Source: Diplosphaera chodatii | Lineage: Eukaryota > Chlorophyta > Trebouxiophyceae > Prasiolales > Stichococcaceae | Direction: 5' to 3' | Assembly (NCBI GenBank): GCA_032358165.1 | Contig: JAALGY010000063.1 | Span: 558,001-622,000, forward strand | DNA: 64,000 bases | In this document: positions 7,919 through 48,822 of the stretch, one piece after another | How the letters are laid out: every line of letters begins with the position of its first letter | Numbering within the stretch: the first letter of the stretch is position 1 | Notes under the pieces: generated by a model | Databases searched by the model: none | What the model was told of the DNA's origin: nothing | What the model saw: only the letters and a program-made list of their open reading frames with translations | Program-made: the position numbers and the translations under genes

Positions 7919-9888
7919 ATGACTAGCGAGATCGTTCCCAGCAACAAGCGGCAGTCATCACCTCCAGCAGCAAACGGCGCTCTGGTCGCCAAGCGACAGC
8001 GGACAGATGGCGATGTCAGCATTTCAGAGCAGGTTGGTCTTGTAGCCGACCGCCGGCATGGTGTATAGTGCGGAAGCACCACGTTTAGCATGTCATAAGC
8101 ATGTGCTGCCGCTGAAGTGATGTGAATGCTACTGTTTCTTGATCTGCAGCCCATCAAACGCACCTCTTCGCTGCGGGCTCCCATCATGCTTCTGACAGGA
8201 CACTCTTCTGAAGTGTTCACGCTGAAGTTCAGCCCGTCCGGGAACCTCCTTGCATGTGAGTAGGAAATCTGCTGCGCCCGCTGCGATGTGAAGCGGACAG
8301 CGGACGAGCCTGCAAGTTTCGAGCAATTGACTGACCCGAGTCATTCTGGAACCTGCAGCGGGCTCGCACGACAAGCATGTGCTCTTGTGGAACACATATG
8401 GTGACTGCGAGAACTTCATGGTCCTCAAAGGTGAGGATATCCCGGAATGCTGCTGACGATGGCAATTTGGCAGCAATAGTTTGATGGCAGGTTGTGCTGC
8501 GAGGCCATGCGCTTCGGGCTGGCTTACACTGATCAATCACGTGCAGGCCATAAAAACGCTGTGGTGGAGCTGCACTGGACGTCTGATGGCGAGCGCATTG
8601 TGACTGCCTCGCCTGACAAGTCTGTGCGTGCATGGGATGTGAGCAGCGGGCAGCAGGTTAAGAAGATGGCAGAGCACGACAGCTTCGTCAACTCGTGCTG
8701 CCCGCTGCGGCGCGGGCCTCCACTGCTGGTCAGCGGCTCAGATGATGGCACAGCAAAGGTGAGCGTGGTCACGACGAAGCAAACGGTGCTGGCGGCTGAC
8801 AGGAAGCAGCACCTACTTGGCTGTGCTGCAAGGTGCACGGGTTGGCTCCACGCCAAGCCGTAAATTCTGCCAGCCTGCCGATTGTCTTGCAGGTTTGGGA
8901 CATGCGGGTCAAGCGCTCGGTGCAGACATTGCCAGAGAAGTACCAGGTTTGCGCGGTGGCCTTTGCAGACGCTGGCGACCAGGTGAGCAAGCGGCTCTGT
9001 CTTGCCTGCGATTGTGCGCGCGCGCCAGGGTGCTCGTGCCCCCCGGCGCACCCCTCATGTGACATGCCGCCGCGAGCCTCGCAGGTGTACACGGGCGGCA
9101 TCGACAACACCATCAAGGTGTGGGACCTGCGGAAGGAGGAGGTCTCCTTCACGCTGGAGGGCCACGGCGACACCATCACCGGCATGCGTGCGGCTTTTTC
9201 CAGCACCTTCAGCTCGGTTTTGGGTCAAGTGCCCTGTGAACAGGTGGGTATACGACTCTCACATCAGGAGTGGTCATCAGTCATGTGTATGTTGGCCCCT
9301 TACCTGCTCAGGTGTCAGCCCAGACGGCAATCATCTGCTGACAAACTCCATGGACAACACGCTGCGCGTGTGGGATGTGAGGCCCTATGCCACAGCAAAC
9401 CGATGCACTAAGGTGAGCCGCAGTAATCAAATTGCTCTGATGTCGGTTCTCCAGCCTTCATTGATTTGCAGCAGGAGCTTGCTTGCCTCATTGGGACATC
9501 GGACACTGCAGGTGTTCACCGGGCACCAGCATACATTTGAAAAGAATCTACTCAAGTGTGACTGGTCGGCAGACGGCAAAAAGGTGTGTGGCACTGTGTC
9601 GCTGTCATCAACCATGCGGAAGTATCAAAGTTGGCGTGTAGGGACAGTGGATGTTGCTGTCTGCGGTTGCCACAGTACGAATACACACACATGCCTCGGG
9701 CCGTGCAGGTCACAGCAGGGAGCGGGGACAAGATGGTGTATGTCTGGGATATGGCGTCAAGGCATCTGCTGTACAAGCTGCCGGGGCACACGGGGTCGGT
9801 CAATGAGACAGTGTTCCACCCCAATGAGCCCATCATCGGGTCAGCCGCCAGTGATAAGAACATCTATCTCGGGGAGTTGACAGAGTGA
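7919..9888 (+). CDS. SNRNP40: U5 snRNP 40 kDa protein, WD40 repeat spliceosome component
   Basis: Nine exons join cleanly in phase: 7919-8032, 8150-8255, 8359-8430, 8547-8758, 8893-8982, 9085-9187, 9312-9412, 9512-9583 and 9709-9888. The product is about 350 residues, the usual length for this family. It has a short basic/polar N-terminus (PSNKRQSSPPAANGALVAKR) followed by seven WD40 repeats, with units such as MLLTGHSSEVFTLKFSP, GSHDKHVLLWNTYGDCENF, TASPDKSVRAWDVSSGQQ, SGSDDGTAKVWDMRVKRSV, TGGIDNTIKVWDLRKEEV and NSMDNTLRVWDVRPYA. The YTGGIDN and LLTNSMDNTLR segments are typical of SNRNP40 (WDR57), which sits with PRP8 in the U5 snRNP and the B/C complexes. The ending SAASDKNIYLGEL also matches the family. 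Confidence is high. Confidence 0.95.
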
Positions 9889-10091
9889 TGGCAGCGGTAG
9901 ATGGCGGCAGTGGGTGCTCAATGGTGTTTGCGGCCAGCATTGCGGACGTGTTGGTATGCCCGACAGAACGACCGTGGCAACATGCTGCATGTTGGCTGCA
10001 GTCATCCTGCAATCTGTGTACGCGATAGCGCCTGAGGTTACAGCCATGTGCCAATCAAATTGGTGGTTCCCCCACATCTGCATCGCCGCTC

Positions 10092-11714
10092 TCATGTTGA
10101 CGGCAGCGGGACTGACTTCTCTGCTGCTTCAAGCGACTGCTGTATCCGTTCTACCTTCTCCTTTCGCGCCAGCAGCTCAGCCACTGCTGCCTTGACCTCC
10201 TCATCGTCATTTGCCAGCCCCTTGCCCTCCTTGAGCTCCCTTACCGCCTTCGCCTGTTCGTCCACTGCTGCCTCTACGCAAGTCAAACCCAGATGTTCAG
10301 CCCCTGACATCATCCTGCCGTTGTCGGCTGTGCGGAAAGTGCTGCAGGTTGTCATCTGCGAACCACTGGGCTTCAGGTGTGCGCCATGTAGACTGCACAG
10401 CTCATGCAAAACATACCTGCAGGCTCCAGCTCGCCCTCGTCGACGGGCGCCCCAGGGCCGCCGCGGGTGCCGTCCTCGAACTCCCAGTGGCTGATCAGCA
10501 CCGCCTGCCCCACACGCTCGTCGGCTGGCGACTCGATGTTCCACAACACCTGGAAGCCACACAGCATTTGATATCATTTTCGTGGTGACATGCCTGCTAT
10601 GAGCATGACTGGGGCCAGCAGCGTCACTGGCGACAGCAGGTTGCCTACACGGGTTGCATGGTAATGGCCCCAGTCAGACCACCCAGTGCTGCTCGATGTC
10701 TGAGCCAGGCCAGCCCCCATCTCACCGCGTCGTGTATGCAGAAGCGCTGGCCCTTGAGCGACACCCGCCACCCAGAGTATCCGGTGGAAAACCCCTTTTG
10801 CTCCGTGTCTTCAAGGAGCGCCTGGCGCTCTGCCCTCACCTGCTTGGATTTGTCACATCTGCTGCGGTGCTGTATGCGTCAGGGTTCGTGAGCTCGTCAG
10901 TCGCCGGGTATCCTGATCATGTGCACAAAGCAATACCTTGGGGTCATCCTCGGTGCTGTCCTTGGAGGGCATGCCCACCAGCTGGTCCCAGCCTGCCTCA
11001 AACAGATCCAGCGCTGCCTGCCACACGCATCGACTTGTCCAGTCAGCACGTGTGAAGTCGCAGCGCGTACTTGGCAAATGATGGCAATGTCCTCAGAAAG
11101 GCTGTGAAGTCGATTAGCAGATGTCACCTTGTTGGCATAGGTGAAGGTCGGCTCCTCAGCTGCATCGTGCGCCAGCACTGCAAAGGGTGCCTCGAACAAC
11201 AGGCGTGCCACGTCTGCAATCTCGGGCTCGCCCTCAATGATGGGCCTGCAGGGGACACACGGCTTGCTGTAAAACTGCATGTCGCAGGCGTGTAAGGTTT
11301 GGCAGGCCAACGCATGGATTGGGCATGCGGCTCAGCGTCCTACAGCACAGACAAACAGAGTGTCGATCAGAATAATAAGGAGCCGACCTGCCAAGTTTTC
11401 GAGAGAAGTTCTCCACCAGCAGCAGGTTCTGCATGATGACATCTGTGTCTGTGTATGGCCTTTTCACTGCGCCGGCCTGTGGGATGCCAGATCCGCCACC
11501 GCCACCCTGCCCCTTCTTCTGCCCTCCTTTCTTGGCCCCCTGCACGTCAGTGATGAAGCTCCGTGCATGCTGCGATGAAGTCACCTTGGATGTACGCCCC
11601 TGTCCCTGCCGCACCTTCTTCGCTGCATGCGGTGCAAAGGGCCGCCATCTCCTACCACTGAGTCGTCCAGCGTGATCTGGTGCAAATACGCCGGTTTCAG
11701 GCGTCCATGCACTC
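10092..11714 (-). CDS. MEKHLA (PAS-like) domain protein with C-terminal WHEP-like domain
   Basis: Minus-strand exons join into a MEKHLA domain, the PAS-like fold found in bacteria and at the C-terminus of plant HD-ZIP III factors. Successive exons encode QNLLLVENFSRKLGR, PIIEGEPEIADVARLLFEAP, FAVLAHDAAEEPTFTYANK, AALDLFEAGWDQLVGMPSK, ERQALLEDTEQKGFSTGYSG, WRVSLKGQRFCIHDA and VLWNIESPADERVGQAVL. This order and spacing are characteristic. After an acidic linker the last exon encodes a helical segment (AVDEQAKAVRELKEGKGL, then EEVKAAVAELLARKEKV) that resembles a WHEP domain, the tRNA/RNA-binding helix-turn-helix of aminoacyl-tRNA synthetases. The stop is at 10092. Upstream of a Lys/Gly-rich segment (exon start 11539) an exon at about 11656-11714 appears to join in phase; the true start is unresolved. 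Function is unknown: sensing plus RNA or protein binding is an inference. Confidence 0.8.
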
Positions 11715-11779
11715 TTCAAGCTATGTAGCATGGTTTGCTCCTGTAATATGTGCACACCGACAGGCTACAGCAAAGTGTA

Positions 11780-12440
11780 TCTTACCTGATATCCGCTCGC
11801 CGCAGAGTGACCTGGAGGTCAGTGCTGCATAGGTTTGCCTGCGCCAGGCGACGGAATTCAGTGTGTGCAGTGGCTAAGCAGCCCATTCAGGCCAGATCTC
11901 CAACATGCAACAGGTCATCGGCGCACCGGCAATGCCGAAATGCAGATGGCGTGTGCGGCGCCCTGTGCACACTGCCAGTATGCACGTGTGACACCAGCAT
12001 TTCGGCCGATGGCAAACAGGTACTTGTGTCTTGTGTCAGCTCTGGCAGTTGCAGCTGCATCGAGGTGCGCTTTGTGGCATTGCACCTGCAATCTAATACA
12101 TTCGCTGACCTGGCAATGTCGATGAACATCTCATGCATCGTACTGAGATCCAAACTCTGTTTGCTCGGGCTGATGCCATGGCGTGAACCTTCCGTTGACC
12201 ACTCCTGAAGGCATCGCAGCTGTCACGCAGATCTGCGGCAGCAGGCCGGGCGTGCACACTGTGGCAACTGCACAGCCCGCCGTCGACATTTGCAAGCACA
12301 AGCCCGACTGACCACCATTGTTGCAAGCGCTGATTGCAGAGGCGCCTTACAGCAGATAGTAGAGTGTTGGGATCGCAGGGGAACCGGGAGGCTCTGGGAT
12401 GGACAGTCACAAGCCGGCGGCCGCCTGATGTTCCGGACAT
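11780..12440 (-). other. Probable further 5' coding exons of the MEKHLA gene, or a separate small gene
   Basis: Short minus-strand stretches look coding: an ATG at 12438-12440 followed by SGTSGGRRLVTVHPRASRF up to a GTAAGG donor, a segment STMHEMFIDIAR before a GTCAGC donor (~12110), and FRRLAQANLCSTDLQVTL before a GTAAGA donor (~11790). The last can be joined in phase to the exon at 11656-11714. None resembles a domain I can name. They may be the N-terminus of the MEKHLA protein or an independent gene. Joining them is tentative. Confidence 0.35.
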
Positions 12441-12533
12441 GCACGGCGCAGCTGGCATGCTGCTGATCGCAGCCGCTGACCATGTCGACGGTTGCCGTTG
12501 ACCAGCAGAACGGCTCTCGGGAGCAACGCATAT

Positions 12534-15500
12534 ATGTCGATGAGGCGGCCGCACCGTCGGTCAAGTCCTGTGCTGCGACTGCTGACTGCCGCTGCTTGCA
12601 CAGCGACAGTGTGCTTCTTGTGGGCATTGGCACAGAAGCTCTTTCACGCAGTCCACCAGCAGCACTACATTGCCGCCGATCAGGTGAGCTGCTTGAGGTG
12701 GCCAGCACTGCCCAATCATCATCCGCAACCTGCGGTCACATGACTCTTTTGCATGCCAGTTCGCAGGGCACAGACAGGTCAGCACACCCAGCAGCCTTTT
12801 CATTCAGCAGGTGGCAGTCGAGCAAGAGGGACAGAGAGCATCAGGTGCCATGCCCGTGGATTGGGCAGCAGCTACTGCCCAGTTTGACATCATAGTTGTG
12901 CAGCGTCAGCATTCAGAGCTATCCCTGTGCTGTGCAGAAGAGGGAGTTCAGCGAGCCCTATGTTGAAGGCAAGGCATTGCGATCATTCCGGCTGCCGCGC
13001 AACACACTTGCAGCCCGCACATTTGTGCAGCACATAGACGAAAAGGACCACTTCCTAGCATCGCCCTCGATCCTGCAGCTGCCCAGTGGGCGCATTTTGG
13101 TTCTCTTCGAGAAGTGCGCCGTTTGAATGTTTGCTGCAGCCGTGCTGACCGCTGCCTGCAGTGCCCTCTTTGCACGTCCTGTCAACCCTCAAAAGCCGGC
13201 ATGTGAGCTGCTTCCATGTGAGCAGTGGATTAAACCTAGGCACGATGGTGAGGGAAGGTATACGCTGTGCAGGCAGCCATCATGGGGTGTGACAGATGCC
13301 AATTGCCGCTTCAAGATGGCGTCTGATGATGGTGGCCAGTCCTGGCAGCATGTTGGATCGCCGGGACCCATGCAGTGGCCGCAGATCTTCAGCTGCGCCT
13401 CGGGTGCAGCATGTGGCATTGCTATTGCAGCATTGCAAAGTGCATGTCCAGATAAGCTGGTGAGGATAGCTGCTAGAAATTGAGCAGCGCTCCATACTCA
13501 CGGGATGCAAGACTGTCGGTGTTCGTGCCTACAGGTGTGTATATTATCGGTTGCCAGCGTCTATTCAGCGCAGACAACAACATCGTCATCTCGCGCATGG
13601 TTGATGGGAGTGAGGTGCTGGCTCTGTCCGTCCAACCATGTTATCTGCCGCTTCCATCCTCATCGATCGAACAGCTGCACGCTTGCACTTAGCTGTCCGC
13701 TTTACATGCTTTCGATTGGGCGTTACGCAGGGCGCGCGGTGGGGCGTGCCAGTGCAGCTGACGCGGGGCCTGAGCGTCATCACCATCAACACCGGCGTGG
13801 ATGTGTCCGCCGGCCGCGTGACCAAAGCCTTTGAGATGATACCAAGGCACGCACTGTGCCACAGCATAGGGCCACCCGTGCACATGCGCTGCCATACCGA
13901 CAAATGTTGCAGAGGGTCTGCACTGCTGACGGTGCACTTCACCCTGCGCTCAGTCTGTCGGCGCCGAGGAAGGCGTCGCAGCTGACGGCGCCGGTTCAGA
14001 TCAACATCAGCGTCGGCGGCGAGGACTCCTCCTGGCGATCGCCTCCCATTGTGACACTTGCTGTGCAGGTGGGCGGCTCGAGGTCGCGACAGCATACTCG
14101 CATGCTGCTCCCTCGAGTCACTGGCTCATGCATTTCCTGGGCACGCAACCTACACCCGTTGCTTTCCACCTGCAGGACGCACGGGGCTTCATTGCACACA
14201 CGCTGGTGAAGATCATGCAGGGCGAGGGGCAGCGACCACTGTTTTTCAGGGTGCTCGACGTGGATGTGCTGGCCAACAGCATGCGGCTACGGATGGAGCG
14301 TTTTACGCTATTCTGGCAGCGGCAAGATGTAGATTTGGTGAGGGCTTGTCACCCATGTCGCTGACTGCTGCTATCAGCAGCATATCAGATATACAGCCAA
14401 GGTGTATCAAGAAAAGTGCATTGCTTGAGGTGATGAATTCCATCACGAGCCCATGCAAGCCGCCTGTGCACCAGTGCAGCAAACGGGCGTGCAAGTGGAA
14501 GTCGGCTCTAATTCGAATGTGTACGGTGGTGTTGATTGGGTCGCCATGGGCATGTCAGCGGACACTTCGGGCAATCTCACTGATCCAGAGGTGGGCATGT
14601 GACCACTTCCATCGTGAGGACAAATGCCTGATGTCTGTTATTCTCCATTCAACGGTGTGGTTGTCCCATCACTACCATCCTTACCACCACGCTGAAGCAC
14701 CTAAACATAACATCGTTCACCTAACACGTCAAGCGCTTGACTGGCATTGCTCTCATCCTACAGGCATGGACATTCAGCAATCCGCTGGGCAACCCAGCAT
14801 CTCTGTACCCAGCGGAAGTGCGGGCATTATTTGATGCTTCCTTCAGGGCTGATAGTATGGTACAGAAGTCAATTTTGGGTTTTGACAACGATGGGAATAG
14901 CTTTCTGAAGTCGCAGGTATTCACCATGCTAACCGACCGCAGCAGGCCACATCTGTTTTCATCATGCCATCAAGCCTGCCTGTAGCCAACCAGCCTGCCT
15001 GTTGCAGCCGAGTGATGTAGCCTTTGAAGCGGGCTTCGGGTCTTTGTACTGGATGGAGGGCGTGGCATTCAGATTACAGGTGACTTTGCGCGCCTGCTGC
15101 AATTGCAGCTTTCTCGAACACATTGCAACGAACGTTGTTGTCAGGCTGCAGGGGCTCAGCCCAATGGCCAAAGTTACGCACCCTGCTACTGTTGAACTCA
15201 GGATCGCCGCGGCGGCAGCGGCAAGCTGTTGAACCTTTTGCGCGTGAACAACGATCTGTTTTGTGATCTTGCCGCATTGGCGACATTTGACGATGCATCT
15301 CAGCCTGGCAGGTTTGCGCTGCAGCGTTGCAACACTCATCTGCTGTGTGATACAACTGAATGTCGCCTGCCCAGCTCGCTGTATCCGACAGCACAGTCGT
15401 CGTTTGGACACTCCATTCCTCCCTTATGGTGTTGCCTGCGACTGGGCAACAGTCTACAGGCAAAGTTCCTGAGGTACAAGAACGTGCCGGGCCTCGCGGT

Positions 15501-19536: not shown

Positions 19537-20849
19537 ATGGTAAGCTATAGCATGCTTTTTTTGGAGCGCATGACGCGTTGTTCATCCTGGCGCGATGAGC
19601 AACTGTAATGACGGCCTGGCAGTCGTGCGCTGAGTGTAGCACGAAAAGCAACAAGACGTGCACTCAGTAAGGCTTGTGCCACTGCTGCAGGCGTACCAGC
19701 AGCCTTCCAGCTATGACGCGTACGGCCAGCAGGGACAGCAGCAGGGGTACGATTCTCAGCAAACCTACGGGCAGCAGCAGGGTCAGTATGCGCAGGGGAC
19801 GCAGGGCTCGCAGGGTGACTACCCACCGTCGCAGCAGTATGGACAACAGGGCTACCAGCAGCCAACTCAGGCTTACAATCAAGGCGCTCAGCACTCCGGC
19901 CAGGCGGGCGCGAGTCACGCCGCTGGGAAGCAGGGAGCTGGCGGTGCCTTCGGCAAAGGTGTGTACCCTGGCTGGATGACGGCGTCGCTATCAAGTGACG
20001 CATTTGTGGCTTGCGTGACTGACAACCGTGCGGACTGGCCGTGTCACTGCTTCGGATTGATTCGCAGTGACGCAGCAGCTGTCAACGCTGGTCGGCGGCA
20101 AGAAGCCGGCCGGACAGCAGGGTGCTGCACCGGGTCACAGCGGCGCACACAAGCCGGGCATCACCGGCCAGCTGGGAGGCCTCCTGAACACAGGTGGTGA
20201 TGTCAACGCATGCTGCTCCAGGCTCGAAGCGCGAGCATCCTCTCCGCTGGCCGGCTGCTTTACAGTGAGGTGGCTCGCTGCAGGCAAGAAGATGTTTGGC
20301 GGCAAGCCTGCTGGCCATGGGCAGCAAGGTCAGCAGCAGGCGTGTGGTCAGCAGGGTCAGCAGCAGGCATATGGCCAGCAGGGGCCGCAGCAGGCATACG
20401 GCCAGCAGGCTCAGCCGCAGGCGTACGGTCAACAGGACAACACACATACGTATGGCCAGCAGGGTCAGCAGCAGGCGTACGGTCAGCAGGACAACACGCA
20501 TACATATGGCCAGCAGGGGCCGCAGCACGCGTACGGTCAGCAGGACAACACGCAGACGTATGGCCAGCAGGGTCAGCAGCACGCGTACGGTCAACAGTAT
20601 TATGGAGGGCAGCAGGACCAGCAGAGTCAGCCACAGGCGTACAGCCAACAGTATCATGGAGGGCAGCAGGACCAGCAGCAGCACACGTATCCCCAGCAAC
20701 AGCAGGGCACATATGGTGCGCAAGGCACATATCCCCAGCAGCAGCAGGGGACCTATGGAGCCCAAGGCGCAACTGGATATGGCAATCAGCAGGGGTACAA
20801 CGGTGCACAGGGCGCATACCCTGGCCAGCAACCGTACGGCGGCCAGTAG
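19537..20849 (+). CDS. Gln/Tyr/Gly-rich prion-like low-complexity protein with YGQQ repeats
   Basis: Four coding exons are inferred: 19537-19539 (only ATG, followed by GTAAGC), 19691-19958, 20068-20193 and 20284-20849. Splice phases agree at every junction. Exon 2 starts AYQQPSSYDAYGQQGQQQGY and is rich in Q, Y, G and S. Exon 3 and the start of exon 4 hold the least repetitive part, GITGQLGGLLNTGKKMFGGK. Exon 4 is then a tandem run of (Y)GQQ(G/D)xQQA units interspersed with NTHTYGQQ and YGGQQDQQ, ending PYGGQ then TAG. The composition is like prion-like and phase-separating domains of FUS/EWS-type proteins, but no RNA-binding domain is visible. Function is unknown. A longer upstream start cannot be excluded: the ATG choice rests on the donor position and frame. 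Confidence 0.7.
20330..20845 (+). repeat. Tandem coding repeat encoding YGQQ-type units
   Basis: The DNA repeats a unit of about 27-33 bases built around GGTCAGCAGCAGGCGTACGG and variants, with third-position differences between copies. At least a dozen imperfect copies are present. The codon variation with kept protein sequence suggests selection on the peptide and not very recent expansion. Because the unit length is a multiple of three, the antisense strand also stays open and gives a spurious leucine-rich frame. Confidence 0.9.
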
Positions 20850-21139: not shown

Positions 21140-24100
21140 TCATTCTGTGAGTGCGTTGCCAGCAGCATGGCCTGCAATGCTGCGCTCCGGCAGGTGGGCC
21201 AGGTCCAGTGGAGGCAGCGCCCTATCTCGCAGCGCGCCCAACAATTGTGTTGGCCAGTCTGCAGGGTTCAAACCTGCACACACCACCACATACGGTCTTG
21301 GGACGGCTGACGGCGGCATGCACCAGTAACAGGCACATGCCTGTCACACGGACGCCGGAGCAAAGTCCGAGTGTGGTTGTGTTGACTCATGCATTCACCC
21401 TCCGTTGCAGCTGCTGCACCGCGCGTAGCAGAAGTATTGCAAGTCCCACGATGCCTGCGCACCCATGGCAGCGAGCTGCTCCTTTGCGCTGGAGCGGGCG
21501 GCCTCCAGCAGCGGCGTGTCGCCCGGCAGCTGGGCCGCCCGCAGGCAGCCCAGCCCCGCCTGCCCGCTCTGCTTGCGCCCCAGCAGCTCCCCCGGGCCCC
21601 TGCACACGACGAGGCGCAGCCTGCTGAGGCACCGGGCCCACAGTGGCACTTCGGACTGACAGAAACATCCATGTGCGAGCTCATGTGTGAGGTCAAGTCA
21701 ACAGCAGCCAGCTCCCCTGGGGCAAGGCACCAACCTGTGGTCCAGGTCGGCCTGCGCGATGACGAAGCCATCCTGGGAGCGCTCCATGATGGACAGGCGG
21801 CCCAGCGCGCCGCGCTCCGCCGTCACCAGGTAGCACGAGCTCGCCCGGGCGCCGCGCCCCACCTGTCGCATGAGACTCGCACCCAGGTATGTACGCAGAC
21901 AGCATCCAGGTGTGAGGGAGCAGACCGATGCAGCAATGCGCGAGCGCTGCAGCAAACACCACACGAGGCTCACCCTGCCGCGCAGCTGGTGCAGCTGCGC
22001 CAGGCCAAAGCGGTCAGCGTGCTCCACCACCATGACCGAGGCCTCCACAACATCCACACCCACCTGCGAGCCAGATGTACAGCAGTTTTCACGACGAAGG
22101 TCTGTGCAGGCAAAATGCCCACATGTCCTGTACGGCAGTAAGCTGCACATGCTGGCGACTGCCAGGCAAAGGCCGGCGCACGCACCTCGACGACGGTTGT
22201 GGAAATGAGGACGGGCGTCTCGCCACTCGAAAAGGCGTCAAGCGCCGCGAGCTTCTCCTCTGGTGCTAGTCGGCCGTGCAGCAGCCCGATTCTGGCGTCG
22301 CCCAGCTGTCCCTCTGCATTAGCAACGATAAAGGCTATGATCTGGAACAGGCAATGCCTCTTGTTCAGCAGCACATGACGTGAGCGCCAACACCTGAAGC
22401 AGTCGGCGCGGCACATGCTGCCTCAGCCAGCGACCAGGTGCTTCGCCCCGACCAGCACCTGCCACGAGCCGGGCGTGCTCGTCCTCGGCGGCCTTGACGT
22501 CCTCCAGGGTGGCTGCCTTGGACGCCTCCACCAGGGGGCAGATGATGTAGGCACGCCCGCCGCCCTCCAGCTCCGCCCTGATGCGCTGGTACATCTGCAC
22601 ACGACAGTCCATACAGCACCATCACATTTGTCACTGCACACTGGTCAACCTGCACCCAACAGCAGGCTGGCATGCAGTTGCACCCTCGCGCAACTGCAAG
22701 CTAACATGCCTTTGCTGGACACATGAGTTCTGCGAGTTGTGGGCAGGGTGGGACAACAGGGTGTAGTCACCTCCTCGCGTGGGCTGGCCTTGTCGAGCAG
22801 CACACGTGTGGCGATGGGCGACCGCCCGGGCGGCAGCTCGTTGATGACAGACAGCGCCATGTCACCGTAGGACACGAGGCTCAGCGTGCGGGGGATCGGT
22901 GTCGCCTGTACAGGGCAAGACCGTGGTCGAGACTGGGGGCTGCACCTTTATGTGATGGCGGGCGTTGGTCAACGACACCACAGCATGCATGCATGCTCAG
23001 CGCTGTTGTGCTTGTGCTTGCATGCTGTCTTGGGTGCAGCTGTAGTGACTGAAGGGCTGCTATCTGTGCAAGCCTGAGTCGCAGTCGAGTTGGATGTGAC
23101 GCACTGTCATGGCCAGGACATGCGGCGCGGGCGTGTTTTTGTTCTGCAGCTTGGCGCGCTGCGCCACGCCAAAGCGGTGCTGCTCATCAACCACTGCCAG
23201 GCCGAGCTGAGCGAATTGCACCGGCTCTGACAGCAGTGCATGCGTGCCAACAACCTGCTCGATGAAGCCAAACCTCATCACATGCACCAAACATGACTGT
23301 GCGACACTCACACCTCCGCATCGGCGAGCAACAAATATCCTTGCACATGTAGATATGCAGCGCCTACACACCAGGGACAGCTCGCCGGAGGCCAGCTCTG
23401 CCAGGATGGCGCGCCGCTGTTTGCCCTTGACGCTGCCGGTCAGCAGCGCGACCGTGACGCGTCTGCCGTCCGCGCGCCGTGGCAGCCGCTCAAGCAGGGC
23501 CTGCAGTGCGCAACAGCATCCCGTCAGACGATGCACGGAGCACTCTGCAGCACTCGCACAAGGTGACATGGATGCAGCATCAAGCACCGTGCCGACGACG
23601 GCTGACCACCCAAGGCGTGCAACTAGGTGGCGACAGCACTGCGCACGAGGCAAACATACGTGGAGACGCTCGCAGTGCTGGGAGGCCAGGATCTCGGTGG
23701 GTGCCATCAGCGCCCCCTGCAGGCCGGACCCCGCTGCTGCGAGCAGTGACAGGAAGGCCACGGCCGTCTTGCCGCTCCCCACATCCCCCTGCAGTGCAAC
23801 ACTGCTGTATGACACAGCTGCTGCGGCCAACATGCCTGAGCGAAGTTTAGACCCCATCAAAGGCATGCATTGGGTGCAAGTTTGGGCCACTGCTGCGGCT
23901 TCGAGCGCACATAACAAGTCTGCAGCACTGGGTGACAGGCACCTGCAGCAGCCTGTTCATGGGAAAGGGCTTCGCCATGTCGGCGAGGACTTGGTCCAGG
24001 CTGCGTTGCTGTGCGTGCGTGAGCTGGAAGGGCAGCGCAGCTTGTGCCGCTTCCAGAAGTGCTGTGTCTGTGCAGCAGCTGCCCTTCGCATCCTGCTCGT

Positions 24101-27100
24101 CTCGCGGCGCCCTGCAGACGCCTCACGAAACGGCGTCAGCGACAAACTCCTATACTGGCCATGTGAGTGACTTGCGTGTGGCATGTGATGGCTGTGCCTG
24201 TTGAGATTCATGTTCGATAGTCCCCTCGTGATCATTTCTGGCGGGCACCTCTGCAGAGCCCGCTTCAGCAGCAGCTTCAGCTGCAGCAGGAACAGCTCGT
24301 CAAAGGCTAGACGCCTGCGCCCAGCCTCTGCAGCGGACATGTTGGGTGGGAAGTGCACCGCCCGCAGGGCCTGCGTTGTGAATACACCACTGTTTGACCT
24401 GCTGCACTACCGCTGTGCCGGTCTCACGTCCTCCACAGATGTCGTCTTGCAAGCGAACCAAAGCAGAGACCAGCAACATCTCAGGAGCGCAACATCGTGT
24501 CACCTCCTGCCAGTCCATCAGGCTCAGCTTGCCGATGATGCTGGATGGCAACGGATCGTGCCCTGCACTGGGGTCCGCCTCCACCAGGCGAAACCCCTCC
24601 GCAATCTGTTGCACGTGCATGAAGTCAGCAGCGTGATACAGAGGGACAGGCCCAAGCAGGCTTCATCAAGCCCACGGCCTTTCAATATGTGCAACCTGGC
24701 CTGCTGCACAGCAGAAAAAGGGGTGGTATTAAGTGTATGCATTGATGCGCACCATCGGCGGGAGATCCTCAGCTTTCAGGGGCTTGCTCGCGGCATAGAC
24801 TGGCACCACATCACAGCCGGCCGCAAGCTGCGCTGAGTACTCTTCCACGTTGAACAGGTCATTGTCTGTCTTCACCATCCAGCCACCTGTGCTCTCAAAC
24901 GATCACTGAAGGTTAATTTAATAGGCATGGCCGTCGATGATATACACTCGAGATGAAGGACGTCACCTTGCCACACATGCTGATAGACGCAAGCAGCCTG
25001 GCATATGACCAGGTGCATGCATTCGTGCATGTGTTGTATACCGTTTCGCTGGGGCGTGAGCCTGCCACGCATAGCGATTCGACGGCCAACTGGAAACGCC
25101 TTTGCCAGAAGGTTTGCTGACCAGGTGCTGCCGTACTTGTAGAACTGCACCACCTGCTGCGGGCCGCTGTCAGCAAGCGGCTCATCGAGGGGGACCTCCC
25201 ACTCCGCATCCTCATCATCTGCAACAGCAACCCTATCGCCTGGCCTGGCCTTGCCCACTGGCTAGCACAGCGGTTGGCAGCTGACAATGGCGTATGCGCA
25301 CAAGTATCCATCGGCATTGCCAGCCACACCTTCTGCAGTTGTGCACTGGGGATTGCGCGGAGAGCTGCTGACGTGCAGCTCTGCCTGGAAGGCGTAGCCA
25401 AACGCCTGCGGTGTCAAAACATCAGCTTGATCCAGAGCGGTTGTTGCAATGGCAGGTGGCTCAGCTTGAAGTGACAAACTACACCATGTCTGTGATGCAA
25501 CTGTTGGCGGGAATGTGGCATGCAGCTGGCGGGCTCCCAGAATGTCGGCCATCCTGCAGGGCTACGACATGGAGTCCCACCTTGCGTGCAGCAACATGGC
25601 CAGATGCCATGATGTGGGCGTCAGCCCGCCAAGCACCGGCCTCAAAGTTCTGGTAGTCTCGAGGGTAGTATTGTAGCAGCTCCCAGACCGTGCGGATACC
25701 CGCATCTGGCAGCTTGCTGCGGGACACCCAACCCAGCAACTCGAGCGTGCATCACGACACAGCTTGAACACCCACCGTGCAGGACGACAAGCGACCAGAT
25801 GCAGGACAACGTGCACCTCCACAGCTTGGACAGCTTGGTCGCCTCCCGCTTGACGTGGCGCCGCAGGTCCGGCTCCACCCATGACAGTGGTAGATCCAGC
25901 ACGCCCCGCCCCTGTAGCAGCACACATTCCCTCGGCAGGCGCACAGCCCTGCTCCTAGTGTGCTGCTTTCTAGCGCAATGTCGTATGCCTGTAACGCAGA
26001 GTCCACTGCCAGCACCTCGGCCTCGTCTGCCAAGACTGTCGCCCAGGCGGAAGGCAGCGTCGGGTCTGCCGTCAGCTGCGCAAGCAGCTCGTCCTCCCCC
26101 TCCGTGGCATCGTCCACGACAAGCGCCTGGATGCAGGGATGCGCTGCTTCAACATGTCACTCAGGTGAGGCACCAGGCGAGCGCTGTCGCTCCCGTACAG
26201 CGGCCTAGCTTTGATGGCCTGTGACGAGGCAGCTTTACAGCTGAGCATGTTGTCGGTTGGGTGACACTGGTGTGGCGCGGCGAGTGCACCTGGACCTGGG
26301 CTGCAGCCTGGCTGTTGGCGGTGGCCGGCTGGGCGCCCGGCTGTGCTGCCGGCGCGGCCTCGTCGTCCTCCACATCCGAGTCGTAGGCATCGCCGTCGTC
26401 ATCCTCCTCCTCTTCCACCGACAGCAGCGCCTGTCGTTAGGAACTTACCAGTTGTGGTATCCCTCTTTGTCATCGAGTGCCATGCGCAAGCACTAGATCA
26501 AGCAATGAATTGTGGCAGCTGCCTCCTGGTGAGGCAATGAATTGAACCACCAGTCAGCGACTGTACAGTGCCCATGGCACCTGTGCGTGGCGAGAGTCGG
26601 GGTTTGCAAAGACATCGGCAGGCACCGGCGGCGGTGTGTGTTTGCCACTTTTCCTTCGCTTCTTGCCTGCCGCTGCAAGGCAGACAGCAGCCTGTCAGGA
26701 TATCATCTGTAAGCACCCTGGCAGATCCTGGGGCATCACGTCCCACACTGCAAATGTCCCAGCAGCACGTACGGGCCAGCTAGGGCAACTCACCAATGTC
26801 GGTGACGCTGCCTGCCCACTGGCTGGTGAAGAGGCCCACAAGCCCCTTGGCATCAAAGTCCTGCCCCGTCTTCTCTGAAAGCATCCTCAGGAACACGTCT
26901 CTGAGCAATTCCACGTCTGCAAGGGCACGATGCGCCTGCAGCAGCGGCAGAGTGGACATCCCCATCAAGAGTCTGCTGGGCTTGCGGTATATGCTTTCAA
27001 GCCGACAGCAGGGTTGAAGCACAAATGCATCCAGTGGCATCATCCTGACCCACCTGGCCCTCAGGCAGCCCGAAGTGGGCTCGCAGCAGCTGCAGCCCAT

Positions 27101-29076
27101 ACCTGCGATCCGGCGGCACCTCTGGCCACTGCTTCCTGGCAAACTTAAGCGAGTCGGCCCACAACCATCTGCTGGGCACCTCGAGACCGCAGCGCTGCAG
27201 CTCGAGCTTCAAGAACGGCAAATCAAACTTTTGTCCTGCACGATGAAGCTGCGACATCAAACTTGCACCATGCCAAGTTTATGTCGTCCCAAGCAGTTGA
27301 GATGACAACAGCAGCAAACGCGCAAGGTGACTTGTCGAGCAGCAACAGTGGTTCCTCTGCATTGCCTCACCATTGTGCGCAACCAACACTGGTGTGCCAC
27401 CAACTGTGGACCCCTCCACAAAGTCAATGAACTGCCGGCCCACCACACTGCAGCCATGTGGAGTCTCAGTAGTGCAGGACGCAGATTTCAATAAGTCAGG
27501 ACGCATACGCAAGAACATATACAGTAGGCCTATGCCTGCTGCAGTCACCGCATAGCCATGTGGTTACGGTTGTTACTGCATCATCAGATCACCTGAAATC
27601 TGGGACAGCCGGGTCGTGTACCATCGCAGTAGAGATGCCATGCACGTTCTGTGCAGCCTCTGGCATCAGCATGGGGGCGATGTTCACCAGCAGGGACATG
27701 CTGGCGCCGCTGTTGTGCTCCAATGCTGCAATCTCAACAATCCTGTTGCCTTTGGTGGGTGGCCCTGCGGCATTCAAACCCATGGCTCAATCCCTGTGTC
27801 TGGACTGGCCGCCGGTGCAACATGTGCAGCGTGTTGGCACAGCTTCCAATACTGCAGCGTGCTCGCCTGTGGTCTCAAGGTCGAAGAACACCAGCTGGGG
27901 TGGGCTGTCATGCAGCCGCTGCAGGACCTCTTCCGGCAGCGGCCCCTCCTCATCAGCAGTGCTGCTGGCCATGCGTTGGCCGTCAGCTGGGCTGCCGCTG
28001 CCATTAGCGCTGTGCCGCACATCAGCTGCTGGGGACGCCACTACGGTGCCCTGAGTGTCTGGGGCACGCTGGTCGTGCAGCCGTCCATCTGGCTGGCGGG
28101 CTGGTTCCTGTGCGTCTGCTTTATCGCCAGACTGAGGCGCCTGCCTCAGTACCGAGGCATCCGGCTGACTGCCCCTGTCATCTGCGTATGCAGTATGCTG
28201 CGCCTGCACTGCAGGCCCATGTCCGTTGTTACGCTCTGCCGCTGCTGGCAACCCTGCTGATGGTGGCTGGGGCGTACCAGCCACAGGGCGCAACTGTCGC
28301 CGTGGGTCCAAAGGTGATGGCTGCCAACCCTGCTGGCGATGCTGATGATGAGTCGGCTGCGCTGGCGGCCACTGCGGCTGCCACTGACCCGGCACAGCTG
28401 TCGCACCTTGACCATTCGACCTGCAGGCGCAATCGTGTTCATGAGCCAAGAAACCAACAATGTGCACAACATCGGGGACATCAGCTTGTTGAGCTGCCAG
28501 ACGAGCACCTGGACCTGAGACCCAACAGCGTGCTGCGAATGTCCTCCAGGGTGGCAGCGCGCTCCGGCAGAGGCATGTCCCTGTAGCGCCTGGCCCGCGT
28601 CAGCATGATGTGCAGGTCCGACTGCATGAGCATCCCGCCCGCCATAGACAGCTCCTCCAGGATAGAAACCTGCAGATACACAGCACCTGGGAATGATGCA
28701 TCCAGCTGGCGACCACGACGCGTGCGCATGCTATGGGCACCACAGCACCATGGTTCACGGCTCTCGCCCTGCACCTGGAAGTCGGCGAAGTACGAGGTTT
28801 TGCCCCTGAAGTTGCAGTGTTTTTGCTGCTGCTCGAACTTGATGCCCTCCAGCAGGAGTGACAACGGATCTTTCCTGCTGATCTGGCTGGCGGCGCCAGA
28901 GGCTCTTCTGACGCCTCTGCATGACACCTGGAACCACAGGCAGACCAGTCTCGTCTCTGTGCCGGCAATGTGCTGCATGGGAGGGCAGACAGGTCACGCC
29001 ACGCGTCGCACCTGTCTGTGCGCGTCATGCAGCAATGCCTCATGGCGCTGTCTGGAGGCTGCACGCAGCAAGCCAT
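21140..29076 (-). CDS. Apparent DEDDh exonuclease-RecG helicase fusion protein
   Basis: A single chain of minus-strand exons seems to run from ATG 29074-29076 to TGA 21140-21142, roughly 1,400-1,500 residues. Part 1 (exons 29012-29076, 28775-28916, 28515-28670) gives a basic, possibly organellar leader and an unassigned segment ([19 protein letters not shown]). Part 2 is a Pro/Gln-rich linker and a DnaQ-like exonuclease: [45 protein letters not shown], and [18 protein letters not shown]. Part 3 is an acidic/basic linker ([39 protein letters not shown]). Part 4 is RecG: wedge-domain start [28 protein letters not shown] (~23770-23793), [19 protein letters not shown] (~23170-23192), [48 protein letters not shown]. 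RecG remodels stalled forks and R-loops, in plants in organelles. One junction near 25740 does not fit a standard splice and is unresolved. The alternative is two genes. Confidence 0.75.
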
Positions 29077-30128
29077 GGATGCTGCCGGCGTGCCGCATGC
29101 TGCTCAGCTGGTTGTGCTGGGGACAACACCAGCCGCGCAGCATTGGCCCAGCTGCAGGCCTTACATCGGTTGAGATCTGCCAATCTGGTTGACCATCTTG
29201 ATGAAACCAGGAACCGTCACGTTGCAACTATGACATGTGGAACCATGCTGGCGGACCACTGCCGCAAGCATTTTCCCTCAGCAGGCAGTCTCGGCCACAC
29301 AACTGCTGTAGGCGATACGATCTGCTTGCAAAATACAACGGTATGGTTTCCGTGCTCGAGCAGCTGAGGACTGCTGCACGACTTCAAGGCATGCAGTGCT
29401 CAAACATACATACAAACATCTTTGAATGTTGAGAAGGCTCAATCACGTGCGACGCGCATGGTTGAAGAATTCTGTCGGGTTCGTGACCGATTGAAGACTG
29501 CAGCAAGATATGTTCCTGACGAGTAGAAGATGTTGCAGCACACATGGTACGGTGTGGGCACCTGTCCTGACTGTCGAGCCACGTGCTGTACCCACCTTGC
29601 CAACCCTTTGCATGGTGCGAGAATTGCCAATGGAAAGCATGATGGCTTGGTGACAGCTTCTGATGTCGCTGTGATGGTGATGCTGATGAATCAACAATGT
29701 GTCTATTTGCGTCTCTCAACGCCGATGGCGATCCAGGATGACAAGCTCAAGCTGCACATGCAGCAATTCAGCGTCTGCTAGACTACCGGGGCAGGGCGCC
29801 AGCAGGAGGCAAGCGGAGTAGTCAGACCAAACGATCAACAGAAGTTTCAAGCAAGATCTTTGCTCAGACTGATTGCAAGTACTTTGCATGACTACTCCTG
29901 TGGCATCATGCCAAACGGAGCCGTCACAGCACATGTTGATCAGAGGAGCCAGCGGGCAACCCGAAGCCCAACGGCCAATTGGCACACCAGGCTGAGCCAA
30001 AGCACAGAAGCCCAGCCCTGCATGTCACCCCTTGGAGGGCGACGTGAAATATCCAGCATGCCTCCACTGCAGATGACAGGTCAGGTCCCCCACTGCAGTG
30101 GTCACACGACAGCTATATGTATGCTGAC
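29077..30128. other. Intergenic: CCCH gene 3' flank and exonuclease-RecG promoter
   Basis: About 1.05 kb without convincing exons. Open frames on both strands (for example an 83-codon plus-strand frame at 29530-29781) lack motifs or splice partners. The segment is noticeably poorer in G+C than the neighbouring genes, consistent with UTR and promoter sequence. Confidence 0.45.
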
Positions 30129-43483: not shown

Positions 43484-46142
43484 GTGGGGGCGGCATGCCG
43501 GACCTGCTGGGTGGCATGCACCCTCCAAACGGCGGACCCATGATGATGGGGGGTGCTGCCATGAATGGCAGCTTCGGCGGCGCCGGTGGCGGCATGCTTC
43601 CTGGCATGATGCCAGGTGGCATGCCCACCGAGATGCTCGGCGGCATGGCCATGGACCCACATCTGCAGGGCATTCCCGGCAGGTAGGCAAGTGCATTGAA
43701 CCCAATCCGGAGCCAACGTCCGAGCAGAGGATCCAGATACCGTCCTGTACCAATGCCAGAGCACAGAACATACAGAGGCGGGTTTGTCCATCGTAGGGGT
43801 GGCCCCGCCCTGGGGCATGCATTCAGCAGCATGGGTCAAGGCATGGCCCCCAGCGGCGGCCTGCCACCCCTGCCGCCTGTGCCAGGTGGTGGTGGTGCAC
43901 TGGGCTTCGGGCTCAATGGCGGGTTTGGTGGCTTCGACGACGGTGATCGGCCGTTGATTGCTGCAGAAACTCAGCTTTGAAGGAGCTCCCCGCTGCTACC
44001 TGCTGCCACTTGCTAGCAGCAATCTGCAATGCTTGACAAAGCCTTCAGGCAGCTGCCACACCAGCAGCTTGGCCACACTTCATCGTGGTACTGCAGGCGG
44101 CTTCGGCAGGCATGGTGGTCGCGGAGGCTTTGGTGGGGGCAGCGGCAGCGGCGGCGGCGGAAGGTTCAACCGAAGGGGCCGCTTTGGGGGCCGGGGCACG
44201 GGGCCGCTCACCAGCGGCCCCTCCCGCGGCGATGCCAACGACTACTGCCAGCATTTTGTCGACACTGGGCAGCGCCCACAGAACTTCTTGCGGGATGCGC
44301 ACATGGTAAGCGACCACAGTGTATGCCTGTGCCAGAGTGTAGTGGACTGCCCACCATTGACCTGGGCTGACGCCGGGAGCATGGTTGCGTGACGTGCGCC
44401 AGGCAGCATTGAGCTGCATCACGGGTGCCCGAGCATGCACCTTGGCATCGGTGATGGACTGCAGGCAGACAAAGACCGCTTTGCAGAGTACCCCAAGTTG
44501 AGGGACCTCGTGGCCGCAAAGGACGATCAAGTCAAGCGCTTTGCCACCCCGCCCATGTTCTTGAAGGTGGGTGACGGGTCAGACAGCTGGCTAGCAACAG
44601 TGTTGGGAATGGATGTGACACTGGATTTGCAGCTGTCTTGACCATTTGACAGTCGCTGTGCCGTGGTGCTGCACGTGCTGCCATACTGCTGTGCAGGCTG
44701 ACCTGAAGCAGCTGCCGCTCACGTTGGACACCTTCGGCACCAAGTTTGACGTGGTGCTGATTGACCCGCCCTGGGAGGAGTATGTGCGGCGGGCGCCCGG
44801 GGCGGACGCGGTCTCTGACAGCTGGCCGTGGCAGGATATTCAGGCGCTTGACGTCGGCAACATCGCTGACTCGCCGGCATTCGTGTTTCTCTGGTAAGCT
44901 CACACATGCAGGCGAGGTCTGCCTTGAGGTTGTGGAGCTGTCGTCCTGCTGGGTGTTCTTCCCCTAGTATGCTGTTCGTTGGGGATGCATGTGACCTCTT
45001 GGTGCAAACCAGATACAGAGTACTCTGCTACTTGATGAGCTGAGGGTTGCCCCGTCTCAGTAGCCGGAGTCCAGGTCAATGGTTGCAAGGCAGCACTGCC
45101 TCTGTGGTGGTGCTTGCACCGGCCATCTCTCACAGCTGCATGATCCGGGTTGAGTCCTCAGCTGGCATCGGACCATGCGGTGGCAGGTGTGGCAGCGCGG
45201 AGGGGCTGGACGCGGGGCGGCACTGCCTGCGCAAGTGGGGCTTCAGGCGGTGCGAGGACATCTGCTGGATCAAGACCAACAAGGACTCCAGCCGCAAGTA
45301 CATGCTGCACCAGGACCCCCACAACTGCATCGTCCACACCAAGGTGCGCACCGCCGGGGTCATCCTGCAACTGTCTGGCGGTCTCCCTGGAGGACGTGCA
45401 TGCACAGAGCTGGTGGCGGCTGCTGCCGCCGGACTGCGATGCGCTGGAAGCAGCTGCGGCACCCTGGAGACTGTTTGTGTGGCGTGCCGCAGGAGCACTG
45501 CCTCATGGGGGTGCGGGGCAACGTGCGGCGATCCACGGACGGTCACATCATTCATGCCAATGTGGACACAGATGTCATCATCAGCGAGGAGCCTGATTAT
45601 GGCAGCACCGCCAAGCCAGAGGAGATTTATGCTATTATCGAGCATTTCTCACTGGGTGCGCCTGCATGGGTCACAGACGCCATTGTTGTCACGGCTTGCG
45701 AAGTGCTGTTGTGCCCATGAACATGCGTGCCTAAGCCATGGCGGCATGTGACATTGCACCTTGCCGTTGCAGGTCAGCGAAGGCTGGAGCTGTTTGGCGA
45801 GGACCGCAATATACGACCAGGCTGGGTGACGGTCGGCCGTGACCTCACATCCTCGAACTTCGACCCTCAGGTGAGCCTGCCGAAGCGTGCGGCCGGTGGC
45901 GTGGAACACATCCTCCTGTGTGGTGTCTCAGGATCCACATAGACACACCAGCAGGCGATAGCAGGAGGTGCCTCTGCACTGTGCAGGCGTATAGTGAGCA
46001 CTTCCGGCTGCCAAATGGCATGCCGTTTGTGACGGCGGGGGGCATCAAGCCCGGACCAGGGGCACCGCACCTCCTGCCCAGCACAGAGTTCATCGAGGAG
46101 CTGCGTCCCCGGTCACCCCCCGCCGGCGGCGGCCGCCGCTGA
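43484..46142 (+). CDS. MTB: METTL14-like m6A methyltransferase subunit, plant type MTB (5' end unresolved)
   Basis: The N-terminal part is Gly/Met-rich and disordered ([20 protein letters not shown], then an RGG-like [13 protein letters not shown]). The conserved region begins [20 protein letters not shown], then [38 protein letters not shown] (~44738-44790), WKxx-type core [92 protein letters not shown] and [15 protein letters not shown], ending [12 protein letters not shown]. These match METTL14/MTB, the RNA-binding partner of METTL3/MTA in the nuclear m6A writer. Like plant MTB it keeps DPPW where animal METTL14 has EPPL. The RGG-like patch sits at the N-terminal side, unlike the C-terminal RGG of human METTL14. 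Confidence 0.93.
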
Positions 46143-46487
46143 ACTTTGTGCATGTAGAACACGCAGACGTCTGGGAAACGTGTGCACAAGTACGGTCAGA
46201 AGGCATGACGGCTTCCGACTGTCTACTGCCCTGCAATGAGCGTTGCATTGACGTTGCAACGGAGCGCGGTGAACTTGATAAGGAGGGTTGAAAGGGACGG
46301 GGCTCGAACATGATTGTTTGGAAGCGAGCAGCCGAGCACATTGTTTGATCGACAGTGCCTGTAAACCCTAAGTGCATCTGGGCAAAAGATAAGCTCCCAG
46401 ATTGCAAACGTGCAACTCGTAGCACTGCACTCAGCACACCTCCCGCTCTTCTTCACATCGTGAGAGAGTCGCGACAGCGCCAGCAAC
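46143..46487. other. Intergenic, MTB 3' flank and LHC promoter
   Basis: About 345 bases between tandem genes. No specific light-responsive or TATA element could be identified with confidence. Confidence 0.45.
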
Positions 46488-48447
46488 ATGATGTCGTCGG
46501 CACTGCTGAATGCCCCGGGGCTGACCGCTAAGTCGGCCTTTGCCAGCCGGCCCGCATCCGGCCGCGCACCGGCAGCGCGCGCTGCTCGCAGCCTCCAGAT
46601 CCGTAACTCAGTCGTCGGCGACGGTAGGCAGTCGCTCAGTGGAACAGCATCGCGGTCCTAACATGGGCGTTCGCATAGTGCAGGGATCACCCTCTTGTTG
46701 AGTGGGAACGCTTCTGCTGTTGCAGGTCCTCTGGGCGACAGATGGTGCGCTGCGACGCCTGCTGCTTGTCTGGCACCTGAGTGTGTGCTTTGGATGGGGG
46801 TTGTGGCAGCACTACGATGCAGTCTTGCTCCTCTGCCTCCAGCAAGCCAGGTCACATCTGGCAGCGCCCTGAGCTGCGGTCCTGGTGCATGCCGCGGTGC
46901 ACAAGTGCAGCAGCACAGTATTGGGCCATCCCTGAGGCGTGTCCCTGTCGCTTGTTCGCCACAACGTCAGGGACACAGGCGCAGGCCTGATGGCATGGGC
47001 GCACTTCGCACGCAGGTACCCAGGAGCAGAGGTGCCGAAGTACCTGGCAGAGGCTGACCTGCCCGGCACATACGGCTTCGACCCGCTGCGGCTGGGCACC
47101 GACCCCGAGAACCTGAAGTGGTGCGTCCTGCTGGGTTGTTGCAGCTGAGTGGCAGACACAGACGTAAGCAAGACATGTGCACATGTGTTTGACGCTTGTT
47201 GGGCGGTGTCGCAGGTATGCCGAGGCGGAGAAGACCAACGGGCGGTGGGCCATGGCAGCGTGCGCAGGCATCCTGTTCACTGATGCAGTGGGCCTGCCGA
47301 ACTGGGTCAACGCCGGCGCTGAGGTGAGCATTCCCTGCGACGGCAAGGCTTGCAATTTGCAGCACGAGTTGCCAGCAGCAGAGGTTGCCGCCAGGGGGAC
47401 TGCGTGGACAGCCTGCTGCATCTCTTGTAGCATCCAAGATCTAGGCCAAGTGCCAGATATAATGCTGTGCACCCACAGGCAGACATGGTCCTGCCGCTGC
47501 CGACGCTCATCGGCCTGGAGGTCGTGATTCTCGGCCTGCTGGAGTACAAGCGGTACGAGGGCTTCAAGAAGACCGGCAAGGTGAGCTTTGCGCAGGAGTT
47601 GGTCGCTTGTGGGTGATGCTGTCGCAGTGCATTGCCGAAGTCTCATCACAGCACCTTCAGGTACAGCAGGTGTGAGGACACGCCGATGCCCAGGCACCCT
47701 GCAACGCCATGGTGTTGGTGCTGCAGTCGGGCTTCCTGGGCTCGTACCCCTTCGACCCGCTGGGCCAGGACAGCCCCCTGATGGCAGAGCGCGAAATCAA
47801 GAATGGTCGCCTGGGTGCGCCGCCCTGAGGACCCGCTTCTCCGCAAGCCGCCGACGCGCACTGTACTGTGCCCTGCTCCTCCTACCTGCACGACTCCTCC
47901 GGGCTGCAGTCCGTCCAACAGACCTTGAATGTGTGTCCTGCAGCCATGATGGCGTTCGTGGGCTTCGCCTCGGTGTACGCCAACCGCGGCATGACGCCGC
48001 TGCAGGCGCTCAACGCCCATGTCGCAGACCCAGCCAACCAGAACAGTGAGTGGCAATAGTCCCTGCCAAAGTCTGTGGCCTCTGCACACTGCTGCAGCTG
48101 GTGTGGCACTACCAAAAATGCCATATCCTGACATGACGCCAGGTGCTGAGAGTGGTTGCTGTGTCTTTGTGCAGTCTTCACCACGGGACAGGCGCTGCCA
48201 GTGCTGATCGCGACCATCGCACTCAGCATCCTGCCCATTGTCATCGAGGCACGCAAGAACCTCGACCCAACAGAGGACGAGTTCGACCCGGTAGGCTCTC
48301 GCCCCTCGTTTGCATGTCCTCAGGGTCAAAGAGCGGCAGTGCACAGTTGCTGCTGGTAACTCGCCGCAGTTCACCCTTTCGGATACGAATTGTAGCTGTC
48401 AACACCATCTTGACTGTGCTGCTTGTGTTTCGCAGATCCCATGGTAG
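46488..48447 (+). CDS. Chlorophyll a/b-binding protein (LHC), Lhca-like with a fourth hydrophobic helix
   Basis: The N-terminus (SSALLNAPGLTAKSAFASRP, then Ala/Arg-rich) is a plastid transit peptide. The mature protein has EVPKYLAEADLPGTYGFDPL, helix B with the generic LHC motif EKTNGRWAMAACAGILFTDA, helix C (LPTLIGLEVVILGLLEYKRY), GSYPFDPLGQDSPLMAEREI and helix A EIKNGRLAMMAFVGFASVYA. Glu/Arg and Asn ligand positions of both LHC motifs are present. After ALNAHVADPANQN the last two exons add a further hydrophobic span, ALPVLIATIALSILPIVIEA, and the end DPTEDEFDPIPW. Ordinary three-helix Lhca proteins stop shortly after helix A, so four membrane spans are predicted. It sits in the thylakoid membrane. 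The tiny last exon (48436-48447) carries only IPW and the stop. Confidence 0.9.
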
Positions 48448-48822
48448 ATTGGCAATGGGGACATCGCAGCTCTAGGGACAGCCGCCAAAGGACCTTGCAG
48501 TTTGAGTTGAGAGGGCAATACAAGCCCACTGAATAGACTGTTACATTTGGACCAAATGAGTGTGGGGCAAATGCGAGGCAGTCAGCACATTTCTGAGCGG
48601 GCAGCTGGGCGCATGCTTGCCATATGGTTGTGTCTATGGAGAAGCATCATGTCATGCTGTCCAATGTTTGTACACTGCGACTTGTCAGCATTTCGTCAGC
48701 CCTCAGTTTGGAAGACGTGTTGGGGCACAGCTGGTGATGTCCTGCAAAACCGTTCATCACCGCACTGCGCATGTCGAATAATTCCCACCGCACAAATCTG
48801 GCACTGCATCCTCTGAACAACA
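48448..48822. other. Convergent intergenic region, LHC and SRP68 3' ends
   Basis: About 375 bases, presumed 3' UTRs of both genes. Nothing else recognised. Confidence 0.5.

Follow-up and report, generated by a model that had tools for sequence, protein, structure and literature searches.

RecG regresses replication forks and acts on branched DNA (PMC6963530), and in Escherichia coli lacking 3' single-stranded DNA exonucleases it becomes essential (PMC3542137). Plant RECG1, an organellar protein, gives partial complementation of E. coli recG, which extends to the suppression of pathological re-initiation of replication (PMC6981420). Organellar DNA is degraded by the 3'-5' exonuclease DPD1, which is described as a stand-alone protein in seed plants (PMC12292046, PMC12079397). 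In the green algae Micromonas, Ostreococcus, Volvox and Cymbomonas, a DPD1-like exonuclease is reported to be fused to RecG (Plant Cell 2024, koae277, PMC12292046), and the fusion is repeated in PMC12079397. Because it is reported in PMC12292046, the exonuclease-RecG architecture is already known, and an earlier note on the DNA studied here, which had taken it to be new, is anticipated by both papers as well as by many algal sequence records.

The window, that is, the whole 64-kb stretch of DNA analysed here, carries on its minus strand a gene of 29 exons (29143 to 21140, 1,407 aa), in which both enzymes are predicted to lie in one frame of one gene. The domain order of its protein is a basic leader, a RecG N-terminal domain, a low-complexity region, a DEDDh exonuclease, a basic and then an acidic linker, and the RecG wedge and motor. 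We give a probability of about 0.8 to the reading that this is one nuclear gene for a cyanobacterial-type RecG branch-migration translocase, with a DPD1-type DEDDh 3'-5' exonuclease inserted between its N-terminal domain and its wedge, and that the protein would act in an organelle, trimming 3' ends at DNA branches.

The gene model was driven by conservation against a second copy on contig C13 and was then hand-adjusted at six places. In the alignment of the two copies, blocks of high and low identity alternate, giving the exon/intron pattern. The earlier note had placed the gene at 21140..29076; its 3' end agrees with our model, and the 5' end is now modelled at 29143. Exon 1 (29012..29143) starts with an ATG that is kept in C13 and encodes the basic leader (aa 1-44), with the second in-frame Met at residue 16. 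Exons 2-3 (28509..28927, as 28927-28775 and 28669-28509) encode the RecG N-terminal domain (aa 58-145), which is matched by an algal profile. Exon 4 (27867..28420) encodes a Q/P-rich low-complexity region followed by exonuclease motif I, FFDLETTG (aa 327-334), with D329 and E331. Motif I is interrupted by intron 4 (27765..27866), which is GC..AG in both copies, all the other 27 of the 28 introns being GT..AG in both. The donor of intron 4 reads GCGAGC in the window and GCGAGT in C13, and the matching intron of a third locus, C1, has GT. The rest of the DEDDh exonuclease, with D421, H479, D484 and most of the PF00929 match, is encoded by exons 5-8 (26794..27764, as 27764-27593, 27447-27371, 27235-27054 and 26935-26794). 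Exons 9-10 (26290..26672, as 26672-26581, basic, and 26430-26290, acidic) encode the linker, which continues as far as the wedge in exons 11-12 (25817..26126, as 26126-26016 and 25911-25817). Exons 13-29 (21140..25716) encode the RecG wedge region, the two motor domains and the C-terminal part, with the stop codon at 21142-21140. Convergent with this gene, a 262-aa open frame in which YGQQ-type repeat units abound lies on the plus strand (20061-20849), its end being some 290 bases away from that of the RecG gene at the 3' side.

The exonuclease and RecG very likely form one joined polypeptide, judging from the predicted exons. At the junction, exon 8 ends in phase 1 at a GTGAGT donor, and exon 9 (first base 26672), which opens with CGGCAGGCAAG, follows it in frame. 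The sequence thus reads as claimed earlier, except that intron 8 (26673..26793, 121 bases) begins at 26793 and not near 26805. Phase-0 exons then lead through the acidic linker to the wedge, as had been stated, though three of them (exons 10, 11 and 12) rather than two precede wedge exon 13. The linker is strongly conserved between the window and C13, with 0 non-synonymous against 8 synonymous differences in exon 9 and 0 against 18 in exons 11-12; dN/dS is 0.095 for the exonuclease and 0.049 for RecG. There is no in-frame Met in residues 495-707, which bears out the earlier observation that the linker offers no ATG start for a separate RecG, and the coding frame holds just two ATGs within 26940-25560, at 26884 in the exonuclease and at 25610 in the wedge region. 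A single chain is supported by the matching exons and phases of C13, the conserved linker, the joined algal homologues and a RecG domain placed ahead of the exonuclease, evidence on which two separate genes are rejected. A single chain is also favoured by exons 8, 9 and 10 being linked in C1, where their phases are the same.

The locus might instead give two products, either a short exonuclease through retention of intron 8 or a RecG of its own that starts internally. As the earlier note had pointed out, retention of intron 8 would bring an in-phase TAG (26782-26780) into the frame; this TAG carries little weight, because it is missing in C13 and because 18 of the 28 introns of the window gene hold an in-phase stop on retention. 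Out-of-frame ATGs at 26615 and 26402 are conserved, and with conserved donors they form four combinations that would continue in phase into one of exons 11, 12 and 13, but nothing further backs their use. A conserved intronic ATG stretch near 26483 is also present, but its ATG has no shared in-phase donor. In the same region of intron 9 (about 26485-26464, minus strand), ATGGCACTCGATGACAAAG is the same in both copies amid diverging intron sequence. Two products are also disfavoured by the joined proteins of other algae and by the presence of a RecG domain ahead of the exonuclease. Nothing found here supported this alternative of the earlier note beyond these features, and we regard it as very unlikely; the single joined polypeptide is preferred.

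All five DEDDh residues are present in the exonuclease of this polypeptide (D329, E331, D421, H479 and D484), and PF00929 matches aa 326-489 with 66.3 bits (cut-off 24). When a seven-sequence exonuclease profile was searched, the best three of the 120 matches listed were named exonuclease DPD1 (E 2.5e-47 to 7.1e-43). In a 36-sequence tree, the algal exonucleases were not grouped with land-plant DPD1, and their relation was left unsettled there. The RecG part has SF2 motor motifs I, II and VI, matches the solved structure 1GM5 (E 4.2e-111) as well as PF00270 and PF00271, and carries the C-terminal RecG domain PF19833 (29.8 bits, cut-off 26.8). TIGR00643 spans positions 2-628 of 629 with 628.4 bits, below its cut-off of 659.4, and NF008168, the best RecG model, reaches 688.3 bits against a cut-off of 718. 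Pfam RecG_wedge was unreported on the full protein and gave E 0.091 on one exon; the region aligns collinearly with the profile of cyanobacterial-type RecG, starting at its position 145.

The earlier note had proposed a search for homologues with the same domain order. With residues 640-1407 as the query, 7,990 of 7,994 scored candidates passed, and among the best 120 listed, 26 have the exonuclease together with both helicase domains (PF00929, PF00270 and PF00271). Names among these 26 include Trebouxia, Myrmecia, Elliptochloris, Apatococcus, Symbiochloris, Coccomyxa, Nannochloris and Micractinium, and several are unnamed. All five DEDDh residues are kept in 24 of the 26, the others being P0039, which is without the N-terminal part, and P0050, which has T and Q at motif I. 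Two further homologues without a PF00929 call, P0052 and P0059, begin part-way through an exonuclease domain, and motifs II and III are preserved in both. The homologue P0035 carries an MMETSP label, which we take to denote a transcriptome project and which would then point to one message in a relative.

The comparisons of predicted proteins place the exonuclease inside RecG, between the N-terminal domain and the wedge, rather than appended to it. The region upstream of the exonuclease, aa 58-145, is common to the algal joined proteins. A profile of this region, for which 18 sequences were used (those of the window and C13, plus 16 others), matched all 87 of the cyanobacterial-type RecG proteins below E 1e-3, the best at 4.8e-19; in the 15 rows printed, the matches fell within residues 1-115. 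As controls, 87 shuffled sequences and 22 Mfd proteins gave best E values of 1 and 1.1, respectively. The 87 proteins are P0064-P0154 minus P0095, P0106, P0139 and P0147, which were dropped beforehand as algal or doubtful; the names listed are cyanobacterial, and many entries are without a name. Candidates for this homologue set were at least about 774 aa long, shorter bacterial RecG being dropped. When the profile was built without both copies of the window genome, the window protein was still matched at E 7.5e-15 (best of 200 shuffles, 0.47). In addition, a profile from 40 of the 87 RecG proteins gave two alignments to the window protein, in collinear order, profile positions 12-105 with aa 69-162 (E 9.5e-4) and positions 145-800 of 829 with aa 668-1361 (E 5e-203). 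The window N-terminal domain alone matched 0 of the 87 cyanobacterial-type RecG proteins below 1e-3 (best 0.0073; one shuffled sequence, 0.18). Since this direct signal is weak, the argument for insertion rests on the intermediate algal sequences. RecG brackets the exonuclease because aa 58-145 match the N-terminus of cyanobacterial-type RecG, and a cyanobacterial origin of the window RecG is suggested; in the RecG tree, algae and cyanobacteria were not separated with support. In the literature searched, which lay mostly outside subscription journals, no text describing an insertion of the exonuclease within RecG was found. This internal placement and the exonuclease copy at C1 are what is new here, both modest additions to the published fusion.

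The second copy on C13 has diverged from the window gene. It shares all 29 exons and their phases, with 1,306 of 1,411 aligned residues identical, and is 78% identical in DNA in the two stretches searched in the 85.6-Mb genome. Among the best candidates scored, RecG matches in the genome lie only on C53, which holds the window locus, and on C13. Window positions 8000-14000, 21400-29100 and 44000-50000 each give one long match to C13 (1119999-1161288), collinear and inverted, with 77-79% DNA identity, and dS in the exonuclease-RecG gene is about 0.3-0.5. The pairing of the window with C13 therefore suggests an old genome doubling, or else a hybrid, more than a pair of alleles. For MutS_V, too, matches often occur in pairs that are split between contigs.

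A third copy of the exonuclease and linker exons is present at locus C1 (L013 3997-5837), with exon boundaries picked by homology to the window gene. Its catalytic residues are intact, and 164 of 282 aligned residues are identical to the window. Six internal junctions were compared, among them the ones that lead into exons 9 and 10, and the phases agree at each; because C1 has the basic and acidic linker exons in the same phases, these exons travel with the exonuclease. No RecG was found beside this copy, the sole match in the surrounding 27 kb, searched to E 1, being at E 0.21. The neighbouring pieces gave weak matches to Pfam WAC_Acf1 (E 0.0031 and 0.005), which are below the cut-off. In the 36-sequence tree, the three exonucleases of this genome cluster with support of 99/98, and this fits duplication in this lineage. 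We tentatively suggest, at somewhat short of even odds, that the exonuclease and its basic/acidic linker form an exon-bounded cassette that was inserted in a plastid-derived RecG and recopied into C1 beside weak WAC-like chromatin domains. It would then be a module moving between proteins, that is, RecG, MutS1 elsewhere and a third partner.

In the proposed mechanism, the protein would go to the plastid and/or the mitochondrion. Its RecG part would regress stalled forks and unwind D-loops and flaps, and the tethered exonuclease would trim 3' single-stranded ends exposed at the branches that RecG remodels. Such trimming would curb strand invasion and re-replication, together with recombination between short repeats, and would amount to organellar recombination surveillance. 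The first 64 residues hold 11 K+R and 3 D+E, and this basic N-terminus fits an organellar leader. A role in the nucleus might be considered in view of the KKRRK motif encoded by exon 9, an exon without amino-acid differences between the window and C13. However, KKRRK is missing from C1 and from the corresponding alignment position of the other algal sequences printed, the leader is basic, and moss and Arabidopsis RECG are described as organellar (PMC6963530, PMC4358946, PMC6981420). We hold a nuclear role to be less likely still than two products, and organellar action is preferred.

The dependence of E. coli lacking 3' exonucleases on RecG, together with the complementation by RECG1, makes the pairing of the two enzymes sensible, without proving it. 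The exonuclease might nevertheless be merely carried by RecG and work independently in bulk turnover of organellar DNA, uncoupled at branches. The exonuclease domain is flanked on either side by long linkers, acidic and of low complexity, which are in favour of such independence, as is the degradation of organellar DNA by stand-alone DPD1 in seed plants (PMC12292046, PMC12079397). Against it, the linkage is kept across the algal homologues among the matches listed, and E. coli shows a genetic overlap between RecG and 3' exonucleases (PMC3542137); neither point is proof. Independent action appears rather unlikely to us, and coupling at branches is preferred. The internal placement of the exonuclease predicts that trimming and branch remodelling occur on the same DNA end. 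One chain with RecG and a 3' exonuclease could also be used to probe directly in organelles the genetic overlap seen in E. coli.

Several known systems join an exonuclease to a DNA repair protein or a helicase. WRN has a DEDD exonuclease and a helicase in one chain; its helicase is of the RecQ family, its exonuclease is of the DEDDy type, and it is nuclear. Bacillus subtilis DinG, like the window protein, has a DEDD exonuclease, N-terminal in its case, together with a helicase, and is active in replication stress, but its helicase is XPD-like and not RecG (PMC12525004). Land-plant RECG/RECG1, like the window protein, is a RecG with a long N-terminal extension, and the land-plant proteins are organellar (PMC6963530, PMC4358946, PMC6981420). 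According to a figure legend, the domains of Arabidopsis RECG are organised as in bacteria, with a targeting sequence added (PMC6963530), and exonuclease is mentioned 0 times in the accessible text of the moss RECG paper (PMC4358946). In the DPD1-MutS1 fusions of Viridiplantae, the same kind of exonuclease is joined to a DNA-binding repair protein (PMC12292046). There the partner is MutS1; in the genome studied here, no exonuclease match lies on the same contig as a MutS_V match. Closest are the published green-algal DPD1-RecG fusions, in which a DPD1-like exonuclease is joined to RecG in the same way as in the window protein (PMC12292046); section 8 of that paper speaks of a fusion, with no description there of a RecG domain upstream of the exonuclease. 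Compared with those fusions, the window gene comes from another species and apparently has two copies, and the contribution of this study is a gene model that is well supported and conserved in two copies, in which the exonuclease would lie inside RecG and not at its end.
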